Position numbers and translations under genes: made by a program. Shown here piece after piece: positions 776 to 41,672 of a stretch of DNA of 41,672 bases (positions are counted from its first letter, which is position 1; each line of letters starts with the position of its first letter). Origin of the DNA: a bacterium (lineage in GTDB: Bacteria > ARS69); the NCBI GenBank assembly GCA_025774805.1, contig JALGZR010000017.1:1-41672 (forward strand). The letters are read 5' to 3'. The notes under the pieces were generated by a model. That model had not been told where the DNA came from. It made no database searches and saw only the letters and a program-made list of their open reading frames with translations.

Positions 776-951
776 CCCGGAGGATTCATGAAGTATCTAC
801 TGCGATCGCGGATACGCTCCACCGGACGGGCGTCCTCGGGACACGTACCCTGCGACGTATCCTCAAGATACGCCTCGGGTCCAACCCCCTGCGGGTGCCC
901 GTCCGGTGGGCGTCTCCACGATCTCGCGACGATCTTCATGAATCCTCCGGG
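776..951 (-). repeat. Palindromic intergenic element A1 (trkA/trkH junction)
   Basis: A 176-bp imperfect palindrome with perfect 17-bp terminal inverted repeats, CCCGGAGGATTCATGAA at 776-792 and its reverse complement at 935-951. Inner arms CCACCGGACGGGC (819-831) and GCCCGTCCGGTGG (897-909) are also exact inverted repeats, and an apical stem CGTATC/GATACG lies at 856-861/867-872. The same sequence recurs in opposite orientation at 7840-8019 and at the right edge. It fills the whole space between the trkA stop codon (952-954, directly abutting) and the trkH start. It has no coding potential of its own. Confidence 0.9.
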
Positions 952-2298
952 TCAGGAGAACATCTTTTCGACCTTCGGGATTGCAGAAGGAAGGGCGAAG
1001 ACGATCACGTGGTCGTGGGGCTCCAGGACGGTGTCGCCGTCGGGAATGTCGAATCGATCTCCTCGGGAGTAGCCTCCGATGATCGCGTCCCGCGGGAAGC
1101 GGACCTCCTTGAGCGGCTTCCCGACGATGCGGGCCTTCTCGCTCGTCGCGAGCTCGAGAGCCTCCGCGTCGATGTCCTTGAACGTGGTCACCTGCAGGAT
1201 ATGCCCGCGGCGGACGAACCGGAGGATGGCGCCCGCCGCGGTCAGGCGGGGGTTCACCGCCGCGTCGAGGCCGATCTCCTTGAGGACCGGGATGTAGTCG
1301 GTCCGCTTCACCAGAGCGACCACCTTGCGGGCGCCCAGGTGGCGCGCCAGGAGCGCCGACATCACGTTCCTCTCCTCGTCGCCGGAGACCGCCGCGAACC
1401 CCTCGCAGTCGGACACACCGCTCTCGCGCAGGGCCGACAGATTCGTTCCGTCGCCGTGGAGAACGGTCGTCTTCACCAGCCGGGCCGCGAGCTCCTCGGA
1501 GCGGTCCCGGGTCGCCTCCAGGAGCCGAACCTCGAAACCGTTCGCCTCGAGCCGGGCACAGAGCCTTTCCCCGACCCCACCTCCACCCACGACGAGAACG
1601 CGCCGGTTTCCGGAGGTTCCCTCGTTCCGCTCCGTCGTCGTGACGAATTGCGCAAGGTCTTCCCTCGAGCCGATCATGTAGAGCCGATCGTCGGGGAGGA
1701 CCCGATGATTCCCCCGGGGGACGATCGTGTCCCCCTCCCGCACGATCGCGACCACGAGGACGTTGGCCCCCTCGTAGAGCTTCTTGAGCTCGGCGAGGCT
1801 CTTGTGGGCGAGAACCGACTCCTCGTCGACGCGGACTCCGATCAACCTCACCCGCCCCTCGTCGAACTCGACCGACTCGGTGACCTGTCGGCCCTCCATA
1901 AGACCGACGATCTCGCGGGCCGCCTCCTCGTCCGGATTGATGACGTAATCGATCCCGAAGGTCTCCATCACGAGCCGCACGTCCTCCTCGGAGCCGATCG
2001 CTCCGCTCAGGCGGGCGACCGCGCGGGTCACGCCGAGCCGGCCCGCCAGGCCGCACGCGGAGAGATTCACCGAGTCGTGCTGCGACACCGCGAGGAGGAG
2101 ATCCGTGTGATCGATCCCGTTCTCCCGCAGGACCACCGGATCGGTCCCGTCTCCCACGACCCCGAACACGTCCAGCTCGTTGATCCGGCCGATCATGGCG
2201 GCCTCCTTGTCGATCACCACGAGGTCGTGCCCCTCGCGGAGGAGACGCTCCGCGATGTAGGTACCGACCTCGCCCGCTCCGATGATCATGATCCGCAT
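952..2298 (-). CDS. trkA: Trk system potassium uptake protein TrkA (NAD-binding regulatory subunit)
   Basis: TrkA is the peripheral cytoplasmic regulator of TrkH; it binds NAD(H)/nucleotides through RCK domains and gates K+ flux. The 448-aa protein has the classic duplicated RCK_N-RCK_C layout. The first Rossmann motif is at the very N-terminus (MRIMIIGAGEVGTYIAERL), followed by TrkA_C around residues 140-215. A second Rossmann motif (VLVVGGGGVGERLCARL) sits near residue 235, and a second TrkA_C domain closes the protein. The start at 2298 is chosen because GGAG lies about 8 nt upstream and because the family begins exactly at MRIMIIGAGEVG; the open frame extends 42 codons further upstream without support. 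The stop codon TGA (952-954) directly abuts repeat A1, and trkH follows on the same strand. Confidence 0.95.
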   Translation of the reverse strand: MRIMIIGAGEVGTYIAERLLREGHDLVVIDKEAAMIGRINELDVFGVVGDGTDPVVLRENGIDHTDLLLAVSQHDSVNLSACGLAGRLGVTRAVARLSGAIGSEEDVRLVMETFGIDYVINPDEEAAREIVGLMEGRQVTESVEFDEGRVRLIGVRVDEESVLAHKSLAELKKLYEGANVLVVAIVREGDTIVPRGNHRVLPDDRLYMIGSREDLAQFVTTTERNEGTSGNRRVLVVGGGGVGERLCARLEANGFEVRLLEATRDRSEELAARLVKTTVLHGDGTNLSALRESGVSDCEGFAAVSGDEERNVMSALLARHLGARKVVALVKRTDYIPVLKEIGLDAAVNPRLTAAGAILRFVRRGHILQVTTFKDIDAEALELATSEKARIVGKPLKEVRFPRDAIIGGYSRGDRFDIPDGDTVLEPHDHVIVFALPSAIPKVEKMFS

Positions 2299-2488
2299 GA
2301 AGGAGCTCCCCACCCGGTGCCCGGGTTTCCCGCGAGGGGGATCGGATCCGGGTATCTCACCATGATTCGATACGGCCCCGTCAAGTGGCGTCTGGAGGGG
2401 AAACCGGCCGGGCTCTCGGTCCATTCCCCCCGGATCTGTCCACAGCGCGCCCCAGGACCCTCTCCGGGGCGGTGCCTCGTCCGTCTCC

Positions 2489-4461: not shown

Positions 4462-4640
4462 CTGGCCTGCGTTTCTCATCAGACGCGTCGCGAGGCTGCG
4501 GATCGTCGTGTCTGGCGAGGAGGTGGGGTGGTTTCGCCCGAGGCGGGGCCATGGCCCCGTCGCAGGGCGGAGGCACCTCAACGACGAAGCATGCGCGCCA
4601 GGCCGCCGCAGCAGCAGAGGCTGGTGAGCTTGCAGGCCAG
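4462..4640 (+). repeat. Palindromic intergenic element B1
   Basis: A 179-bp element bounded by CTGGCCTGC (4462-4470) and its inverted copy GCAGGCCAG (4632-4640). The apical hairpin CGGGGC/GCCCCG is at 4544-4549/4554-4559 with loop CATG. It matches elements at 7665-7838 and 27534-27715 over their whole length. It lies upstream of the 3482-4375 gene and just beyond the HU terminator. Together with that terminator it fills the 341-bp gap 4376-4716; the remaining 86 bp next to the gene show nothing recognisable. Confidence 0.88.
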
Positions 4641-7664: not shown

Positions 7665-7838
7665 GCCTGCTTTTCTCACCAGGCTCGTCGCGAGGCTGCG
7701 GATCGTCGTGGCTGGCGAGGAGATGGGGTGCTTTCGCCCGTGGCGGGGCCGTGGCCCCGTCGCAGGGCGGAAGCGCGCCAGCGACGAAGCCAGGCGGCCT
7801 CGCCGCTGCCGCAGCAGAGACTCGTGAGACGTGCAGGC
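7665..7838 (+). repeat. Palindromic intergenic element B2
   Basis: A 174-bp element running from GCCTGC (7665-7670) to GCAGGC (7833-7838). The apical hairpin CGGGGC/GCCCCG is at 7744-7749/7754-7759. It is nearly identical to elements at 4462-4640 and 27534-27715. It is joined head to tail with element A2, one base apart. A separate 7-bp stem (CGGCCGC 7621-7627 with GCGGCCG 7636-7642) lies between it and the M20 gene. With A2 it accounts for most of the 480-bp gap 7538-8017. Confidence 0.9.
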
Positions 7839-7839
7839 A

Positions 7840-8019
7840 AGCCCGGACTATTCATGAAGATCGTCGCGAGATTGCGGAGACGCCCACCGGACGGGCACCC
7901 GCAGGGGTTTGGACCCGAGGCGTATCTCGACGATACGTCGCAGAGTACGGACCCCGAGGACGCCCGTCCGGTGGCGTGGATCCGCGATCGCAGCAGATCC
8001 TTCGTGAATAGTCCGGGCT
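7840..8019 (+). repeat. Palindromic intergenic element A2
   Basis: A 180-bp element with 19-bp terminal inverted repeats, AGCCCGGACTATTCATGAA (7840-7858) and a one-mismatch inverted copy (8001-8019). Inner arms CCACCGGACGGGC (7884-7896) and GCCCGTCCGGTGG (7962-7974) are exact; the apical stem CGTATC/GATACG is at 7921-7926/7932-7937. Its right end overlaps the TAG stop codon (8018-8020) of the LTD gene. Confidence 0.9.
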
Positions 8020-9430
8020 AGGGTCGGTAGAGCGCCTTGACGCGAGCCCAGCTCTCCCGGGGGAGGGCGGACGGAGAGCCGTTCGGGGCGCCCGGAGAGA
8101 AGCTCCACCCGAAGCCGGCGTCGGAGGGACGGGTCCACTCCCCGTGACCGTCGGGCAGGCGGATCAGCGACTCATCGGCGCCGGCCTCCGAGCCGTAGGC
8201 GTGGGCGTCGGCCGTCACCCCTTGGACGTTCACCAGACGGACCTCGTCCCCGGTGTTGTTGAGGGAGAGTCCGCCGGTGGAGGCCACGGTCGCCCCGGAG
8301 GGAATCCCGGTCGGAGTACCCCCGCCGAAGACCACGAAGATCTCACCCGGGCCGAGGACCCCACCCTCGCCGAACTCGTGGCGAAGACCCGTCGCGTCGT
8401 GCAGGGACCACCCGGTGATGTCCTGGGGCTCTCCCGACCGGTTGATCACCTCGATGAACTCGTCGTCCGACGTGCTCCGAACGCCGTCGCCGTTCGCGTC
8501 GCCCTCGAGGCCCGCGGGGGGGTCCGCGAGAATCTCGTTCAGCGCGATGGGGGAATCGCTCCCCCCGACGACGATCTCGACCTCGTTCGTCTCCTCGAGA
8601 AGCGCCCCGTCCGACACCCGGACGACGACGCCCAGGACGGTTCCCTCCGGCTGGGCGGGAATCACGATCTCCCACGTCCCGAGGTGGACCGTGCCCTCCA
8701 CCAGGCTCATGGGTTGCGACTGCACGCCGCCCCCGTCGACCGTGAGCCGGAGGACGCACTCGGCGACGCCGTCGGCGTCGCCCGCGGTCGCGCGGACCCC
8801 GATCGGGTCGGCGCTCGTGGGAAACGTCGGCTCGATCTCGACCGAGAGGATCTTCGGGGTCGCGGGGCCCCCGTTCTGTCCCCCGGGAGTGGGCTGGGGA
8901 CCCGTCCCCCCCGGAGCCAGCGCGTCGAACGGAGTCCATGCCGGATCGCCGTCCGGAAGCCGCCCGAGGGAGACGTCGGTGTTGACGTCACCCGAGGTGT
9001 ACGTGAGCTCGTCCAGGAGTGTGGTGTCGCCCCCGGAGGCACGGAAGAGGGAGACCGTGTCCCCCGAGTTGTTGAGGGAGAGCCCGACGGCGGGGAAGCC
9101 GTTCGCCGCCTCCCAGTCGACGGCCAGCTCTCCCGTCAGGAAAAGGTGCTCACCGGGGGCGAGGCTGCCCGAGAGACCGATTCGGGGGGTGCTCGGTCCG
9201 GCTCCGTCCGTCACGAAGTGATCGGTCAGATCCGCGGGCGCGGAGCCGGCGTTGAAGATCTCGACCCACTCGTCCTCCGAGGACGAATAGATGCCGTTGC
9301 CCGTCCAGTCGGTACCGGGGGCCGGAAGCAGCTCGTTGAGCACGAGCTGGGCGCCGGCCCGATCGGCGAAGGCGGCCGCCGCGACCAGCAGTGCAGCGCC
9401 GGCCGCGGGGACCCGTCGTGGGAACCGCAT
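8018..9430 (-). CDS. Exported protein with two lamin-tail domains
   Basis: A 470-aa secreted or surface protein. Residues 1-27 are a signal peptide (cleavage likely after DRAGA). The first LTD follows at once (LVLNELLPAP, then SSEDEWVEIFN, to about residue 185). A central Ig-like region spans about 195-285. A second LTD (IALNEILADPP, then DDEFIEVINRSGEPQDITGW) runs to the end. LTDs are Ig-fold modules found in exported bacterial proteins, often with nucleases or surface enzymes; here no catalytic domain is seen. Asp-rich segments (DANGDGVRSTSDDE) look able to bind calcium. The ATG at 9430 has GGAGG 8 nt upstream. The protein ends in KALYRP with no FlgD-type C-terminal domain, unlike the neighbouring LTD proteins. 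Confidence 0.8.
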   Translation of the reverse strand: MRFPRRVPAAGAALLVAAAAFADRAGAQLVLNELLPAPGTDWTGNGIYSSSEDEWVEIFNAGSAPADLTDHFVTDGAGPSTPRIGLSGSLAPGEHLFLTGELAVDWEAANGFPAVGLSLNNSGDTVSLFRASGGDTTLLDELTYTSGDVNTDVSLGRLPDGDPAWTPFDALAPGGTGPQPTPGGQNGGPATPKILSVEIEPTFPTSADPIGVRATAGDADGVAECVLRLTVDGGGVQSQPMSLVEGTVHLGTWEIVIPAQPEGTVLGVVVRVSDGALLEETNEVEIVVGGSDSPIALNEILADPPAGLEGDANGDGVRSTSDDEFIEVINRSGEPQDITGWSLHDATGLRHEFGEGGVLGPGEIFVVFGGGTPTGIPSGATVASTGGLSLNNTGDEVRLVNVQGVTADAHAYGSEAGADESLIRLPDGHGEWTRPSDAGFGWSFSPGAPNGSPSALPRESWARVKALYRP

Positions 9431-27537: not shown

Positions 27538-27715
27538 CCTGCATTTCTCACCAGGCTCGTCGCGAGGCCGCGGACAGGCGTATATGGCGAGGAGATGGGG
27601 TGCTTTCGCCCGAGGCGGGGCCGTAGCCCCGTCGCAGGGCGGAAGCGCGCCAGCGACGAAGTCAGGCGCGGCTTTGCCGCGGACGCAGCAGAGGCGGGTG
27701 AGATATGCAGGCTAG
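27534..27715 (+). repeat. Palindromic intergenic element B3
   Basis: A 182-bp element bounded by CTAGCCTGCA (27534-27543) and TGCAGGCTAG (27706-27715), an exact inverted repeat. The apical hairpin CGGGGC/GCCCCG is at 27616-27621/27626-27631. It separates two permease genes of one importer. The TAG stop codon of the upstream permease (27712-27714) lies inside its right end. Confidence 0.9.
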
Positions 27716-41529: not shown

Positions 41530-41561
41530 GGGCGCGCTCGGACCACCGGGCCCAAGGTCCT

Positions 41562-41672
41562 AGCCCGGACTATTCATGAAGGGCCGTCGCGAGATCGTGG
41601 AGACGCCCACCGGACGGGCACCCGCAGGGGCTCGAACCCGAGGCGTATCTGAACGATACGTCGCAGGGTGCG
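41562..41672 (+). repeat. Palindromic intergenic element A3 (cut by the window edge)
   Basis: The left 111 bp of an A element: terminal repeat AGCCCGGACTATTCATGAA (41562-41580), the inner arm CCACCGGACGGGC, and apical stem CGTATC/GATACG at 41644-41649/41655-41660. It is preceded by CT, forming the same CTAG seen at other element ends. Same orientation as A2. It lies 32 bp upstream of the carbamate kinase gene; its right half lies outside the window. Confidence 0.88.

Follow-up and report, generated by a model that had tools for sequence, protein, structure and literature searches.

Several imperfect palindromes stand between genes in the window, i.e., the whole stretch of 41,672 nucleotides that was analysed (contig JALGZR010000017.1, assembly GCA_025774805.1). 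The question raised by this locus is what kind of element these palindromes are, and what could have placed them next to genes. The original prediction described a family, form A, with three copies between genes. The family is real, and it comprises two full copies and one copy cut by the window edge.

776 to 951, minus strand (strand of the body): form A copy A1, 176 bp, flanked by TTAG (772-775) and TCAG (952-955)
7842 to 8017, plus strand: form A copy A2, 176 bp, flanked by CAAG (7838-7841) and CTAG (8018-8021)
41564 to 41672, plus strand: form A copy A3, of which the window contains the first 109 bp, with CTAG on its left (41560-41563)

The predicted boundaries of A1 were retained, whereas those of A2 were corrected from 7840-8019 and the start of A3 was moved from 41562. 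The inverted repeats were recognized as predicted, but their outermost AG/CT belongs to the flanking YTAR, and the element proper extends from CCCGG to CCGGG. The termini read CCCGGA-N2-ATTCATGAA, inverted at the other end. As first described, the inner arms are exact (CCACCGGACGGGC / GCCCGTCCGGTGG) and a central hairpin is present. A1 and A2 are 89% alike as inverted copies, and each runs from CCCGGA to TCCGGG. The predicted RNA fold of A2 was -126 kcal/mol, against -70 +/- 4.4 in 200 shuffled sequences (z = -12.8).

A1 is located with trkA (952-2424, minus strand) on one side and trkH (minus strand, start codon at 767) on the other. The stop codon of trkA, TGA, is contained in the flanking tetranucleotide at 952-955. 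Similarly, the right flank of A2 contains the TAG stop of a gene for a lamin-tail-domain protein (8018-9430, minus strand). A3 is complete on the contig beyond the window, where it is split by a scaffold gap and reaches C87:41801. It was considered as an extended 238-bp copy, which was rejected because the extra length is the assembly gap (20 N). A coding role of the element was rejected as well. A2 is open in one frame, yet 1-nt indels separate the 176-bp and 177-bp subfamilies, and low-GC relatives carry stops on inspection.

In the source genome (5.1 Mb, 284 contigs), approximately 45 form A copies were found, of which 23 aligned fully at 176-177 bp with fixed boundaries. The prediction had named few copies and variable lengths as the result that would speak against it; many copies of fixed length were found instead. 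The remaining copies were in part cut by contig ends and in part internally deleted. The deleted copies, i.e., 59, 74, 96, 127, 134, 142, 150, and 159 bp, retained both ends. A 127-bp deletion derivative (L073:954-1080) was placed within a palindromic target, ccatggcgg-CTAG-ccgccatgg. The form A end pattern gave 74 matches in the source genome and the reversed pattern gave one. By BLAST and end pattern, the four further genomes from the family of the source genome gave no match to form A, and the plasmid collection gave none either. A single form-A-type end was seen at the very edge (19-38) of one viral contig (L095, IMG/VR), the only viral contig matched. Form A has the build of a MITE, with terminal inverted repeats at fixed boundaries, a length below 300 bp, many copies, and no transposase gene.

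The flanks of 32 copies from the source genome were compared. CTAG was present on both sides in 14 and YTAR on at least one side in 24. In 17 of the 32, the flank served as stop codon for a long coding-like ORF, and the distances peaked sharply at zero. CTAG itself is scarce, i.e., 11 sites in the window against 123 expected from base composition, which is approximately a ten-fold depletion. Eight of the 11 sites are stop codons, and so are about five of the seven sites that do not flank elements, as counted from the listed coordinates. Because CTAG is depleted otherwise and survives mostly as TAG stops, an enzyme seeking CTAG would meet mainly such stops, which explains why half of the form A copies sit exactly on stop codons. 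A special recognition of stop codons by the element was ruled out, since genomic CTAG is largely confined to TAG stops. In all six informative copies, the bases adjoining the two ends were complementary, and none of the six had a 4-bp direct repeat, so the true target duplication may be just the TA within YTAR. The orientation of form A relative to the adjacent gene was approximately 11 to 5 in a hand tally, without strong bias.

The species genomes of GTDB were scanned with the end pattern CTAGCCCGGANNATTCATGAA. At least 117 stretches were matched, and many of these were complete palindromes of approximately 160-205 bp. Among the matches listed, the carriers were Nitrospira, Sedimenticola, Myxococcota, Planctomycetota, Eisenbacteria, Krumholzibacteriia, Desulfobacterota, and others. 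Counted in 25 carrier genomes, the ends numbered from 2 to 260 in each, and the reversed pattern never occurred. IS1380 transposases were then searched in 20 carrier genomes, with 53 matches in Jannaschia seosinensis. The complete 1.6-kb IS1380 transposons of Jannaschia have termini of YTAR followed by CCCGGATAATTCAYGA, the same as form A. These complete copies are bounded by YTAR before CCCGGATAATTCACGAG on one side and by CTTCATGAATTATGCGGG before YTAR on the other, and their transposase was assigned to PF13701 with 507 bits. In three other carrier genomes, IS1380 genes or fragments were found with the same kind of end adjoining. One Jannaschia IS1380 copy (L236:1324-2945) is enclosed by an inverted repeat that resembles a hairpin (tgttccatcttc / gaaggtggaaca), and terminator-like palindromes may have been targeted by that copy.

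Form A resembles the IS1380 family (NF033539 / PF13701) in repeats that begin with CCC, in a 17-bp end (CCCGGATAATTCATGAA), and in a target of the YTAR/TTAA type. It differs from IS1380 in having no transposase gene, in being near-palindromic across 176 bp, and in a body that, as far as seen, does not consist of IS1380 sequence. The ends of piggyBac, a distant relative of IS1380, also begin with CCC, and its target is TTAA (PMC10140906). The transposase with matching ends that the prediction had called for was thus found in Jannaschia. In the source genome, no intact transposase was found, the sole trace being a degraded C-terminal piece of an IS1380 transposase (G000:C17:1801-2088). No IS1380 match was obtained in 13 of the 20 element-carrying genomes searched, many of which are incomplete MAGs.

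Evidence of mobility came from Nitrospira, which carries an element of the same kind with a length of 173 bp. For 10 Nitrospira insertions, the two flanks were joined in silico and the resulting sequences used as queries against 29 Nitrospira genomes. Five sites gave contiguous matches across the junction in sister species, i.e., base-precise empty sites of the sort that had been suggested as a check, here for the Nitrospira insertions. By base-level alignment, the junctions contained a single YTAR, as CTAG or TTAA, or a mutated YTAR. In the donor genomes, the joined-flank queries gave two separated matches.

The part between the ends is a body of approximately 135 bp, and in alignment the copies from several phyla share much beyond their ends. 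Recognizable motifs are CGTCGCGAG near the left end and GTCGCAGCAG near the right end, with GAGGCGTAC-N4-6-GTACGTYGAGG in the centre. The central pairs covary between phyla, i.e., GTAC/GTAC, GTATC/GATAC, and GTGTT/AACAC. The conserved features of the palindrome are asymmetric, and covariance model R1 scored the two strands of A2 with 166.7 and 64.4 bits. By the same model, 20 of 241 genomes contain the element, some of them with different outer ends. Because the ends or generic hairpins might drive such matches, the ends of IS1380-ended copies were removed and a profile based on sequence alone was trained on the remaining bodies. This profile recovered elements with other ends (e.g., L259, L185, L198, and L130). 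Reversed sequences gave no match at E <= 1 in the first round, and after iteration there were 100 matches against 0-1 reversed. A core covariance model, R2, built of the eight central pairs only, detected the body in 27 of 386 genomes, 18 of them at E < 1e-6 and in 16 families (count from our own table). The carriers of the body include Nitrospira, Desulfobacterota, Krumholzibacteriia, and Lysobacterales, together with the source lineage. Judged from these alignments and profiles, the body is conserved independently of the ends, and this middle part of the element seems itself to be under selection. In the arms of 23 aligned copies from the source genome, 47 pair cells showed compensated double changes versus 44 singly broken, and paired columns were half as variable as unpaired ones. 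This pattern could arise by selection on the fold, by hairpin-templated repair, or from different master copies.

The same body was seen under at least eight different terminal sequences. Two of these are IS1380-like, i.e., CTAG before CCCGG..TTCATGA and CTAG before CCYGC..TCTCACC. A third, CTAG before GAGYCTGTCCGAG, was found in many full-length copies in one Nitrospira genome, and the end type CAGGATGYTCAAAA also occurs in tandem arrays of roughly 130-bp units (Nitrospira L291 and L284). Further outer ends are GGGCAGTCACAAAAACC, GGATCGCGCCGCCCGG, TTCGGGTGGCGGGAG, GAGCCCACGTTGAGCGA, and GGGGTTGGAGTTTTT, plus others. In Nitrospira L185, three elements with three end types adjoin each other (92-272, 276-450, and 461-579). 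No autonomous transposon with ends other than those of IS1380 was detected among the loci examined. In the source genome itself, the form A body also occurs under CCTGC..TCTCACC ends, and this second form, form B, has approximately 350 candidate copies. Four form B or B-like elements were identified in the window.

4466 to 4636, plus strand: form B copy, same body design, ends CCTGC..TCTCATCAGAC
7666 to 7837, plus strand: form B copy (B2), directly abutting A2, with one flanking tetranucleotide common to both
27538 to 27711, plus strand: form B copy, CTAG on both sides, model R1 match of 69 bits
27471 to 27536, minus strand: short B-like derivative, inverse to and abutting the form B copy at 27538 to 27711, with CTAG common to both

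REP/BIME units are hairpins of 20-40 bp with a GTAG foot and with a RAYT in the genome. Form A shares with REP/BIME, ERIC, and other extragenic palindromes that it is an imperfect intergenic palindrome in many copies, but it differs in length, termini, and target, and it is IS1380-ended. It is 176 bp long with CTAG on both sides, which agrees with the earlier remark that it is longer than REP/BIME units. MITEs of bacteria are normally regarded as remnants of a single IS that are specific to one lineage and whose middles are dispensable. Form A is like the bacterial MITEs Chunjie, Correia, and Nezha in size, terminal repeats, target flanks, intergenic placement, and deletion variants. Unlike these, its body is conserved across phyla and common to different termini; Chunjie, a 178-235 bp MITE of Geobacter uraniireducens (review PMC10969869), was compared by description only.

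The centre of the body was probably glimpsed before in Geobacter. The genome paper of Geobacter metallireducens (2009) lists 24 intergenic 'predicted short RNA elements' with a central palindrome, GRCGTAGCGCTGCTACGCC, and reports them from Desulfotalea too (PMC2700814). An earlier glimpse is probable because this palindrome has the form of the body centre; it matches the centre of several relatives (e.g., L256), as compared by motif form. The Geobacter elements are also intergenic and multicopy, and by motif form their centre is of the type GGCGTAGC..GCTACGYC. They differ from form A in that the passage of the paper that describes them presents them as RNA, without termini or mobility (PMC2700814). 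Rfam gave no match to the element at both thresholds, and a paper search by terminal sequence gave none to the ends. The view that no named family has these ends, which a hit to a known family would have contradicted, holds for Rfam, but the ends are those of the IS1380 family.

Form A is very probably a MITE-like, non-autonomous transposon with IS1380-type ends, which is moved in trans and whose body is an old shared module. It is assigned to the MITE-like elements of the IS1380 type because its ends are IS1380 ends and because empty sites exist in Nitrospira. The original reading, a non-autonomous mobile element with its enzyme encoded elsewhere, gains support from the approximately 45 length-conserved copies, the deletions that keep the ends, the YTAR flanks, the IS1380-identical termini, and the Nitrospira empty sites. 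Since the termini of form A are IS1380 termini, we infer that an IS1380-type DDE transposase supplied in trans is the most likely enzyme to excise it in the source genome. The excised element would be pasted into YTAR (CTAG/TTAA), with YTAR left on each side. Surviving insertions would accumulate on TAG stops, CTAG being avoided elsewhere. The flank would restore the stop codon, so that the reading frame would be kept and a long hairpin would be the first thing after the stop. The body would be a module common to related elements in many phyla and to elements with other termini, and it is probably kept for its action either in folded single-stranded form or as a site of protein binding. Against this explanation, a MITE needs no conserved body.

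The conserved body could instead function as a structured RNA, an alternative that the prediction also offered, or as a 3'-UTR element. It would then be selected at gene ends as a terminator, stability hairpin, or small RNA, with mobility being secondary. The covarying central pairs across phyla, the compensated and less variable arm pairs, the half of the source-genome copies directly after a stop codon, and the annotation of the Geobacter relatives as predicted short RNAs (PMC2700814) are consistent with such a role. However, the other four genomes in its family gave no form A match, the deleted copies are without much of the body, and the stop-codon placement is accounted for by CTAG scarcity. 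The orientation is also without strong bias, Rfam is without a match, and the covariation is possible from hairpin-templated DNA repair or different master copies, so we regard this role as rather unlikely. The strand asymmetry of A2 under model R1 is what would be expected if one folded strand were recognized, as in a REP/BIME-like element that a Y1 (RAYT/IS200-like) enzyme moves in its folded single-stranded form. With IS1380 termini, YTAR placed symmetrically on both sides, empty sites that hold one YTAR, no GTAG foot, and a length of 176 bp, this mode of movement is very improbable.

It is a serious possibility, if short of a probable one, that the body hitch-hikes as a module and that its terminal repeats were exchanged between transposon families several times. 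The eight or more outer ends on one body, with three types adjoining in L185, point to such an exchange, as does the recovery of these elements by the ends-excluded profile with no reversed match in its first round. But the other ends are without a matching autonomous transposon among the loci examined, different ends could also have arisen as an ancient terminal stem drifted, and single-copy cases may be misassigned. A wider proposal, which we advance tentatively and with some doubt, is that the palindromic body, whose asymmetric internal loops are conserved, is itself a selfish module. It might have repeatedly acquired the ends of different transposon families, might be movable by different transposases, and might work as a folded single strand, i.e., replication-fork DNA or RNA, across many phyla.

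In our view, an IS1380-ended MITE is a known kind of element and form A is a new member of it, whereas a conserved body under changing ends is the new aspect. Here the middle of a MITE is the conserved part, in distant bacteria and under several transposon-like ends. If this is true, there would be a widespread class of non-coding mobile modules, absent from the family databases checked, and these modules would place a strong hairpin at the 3' end of many genes. It would also become testable why the body of a MITE is selected and how its use by one transposase or another is determined.
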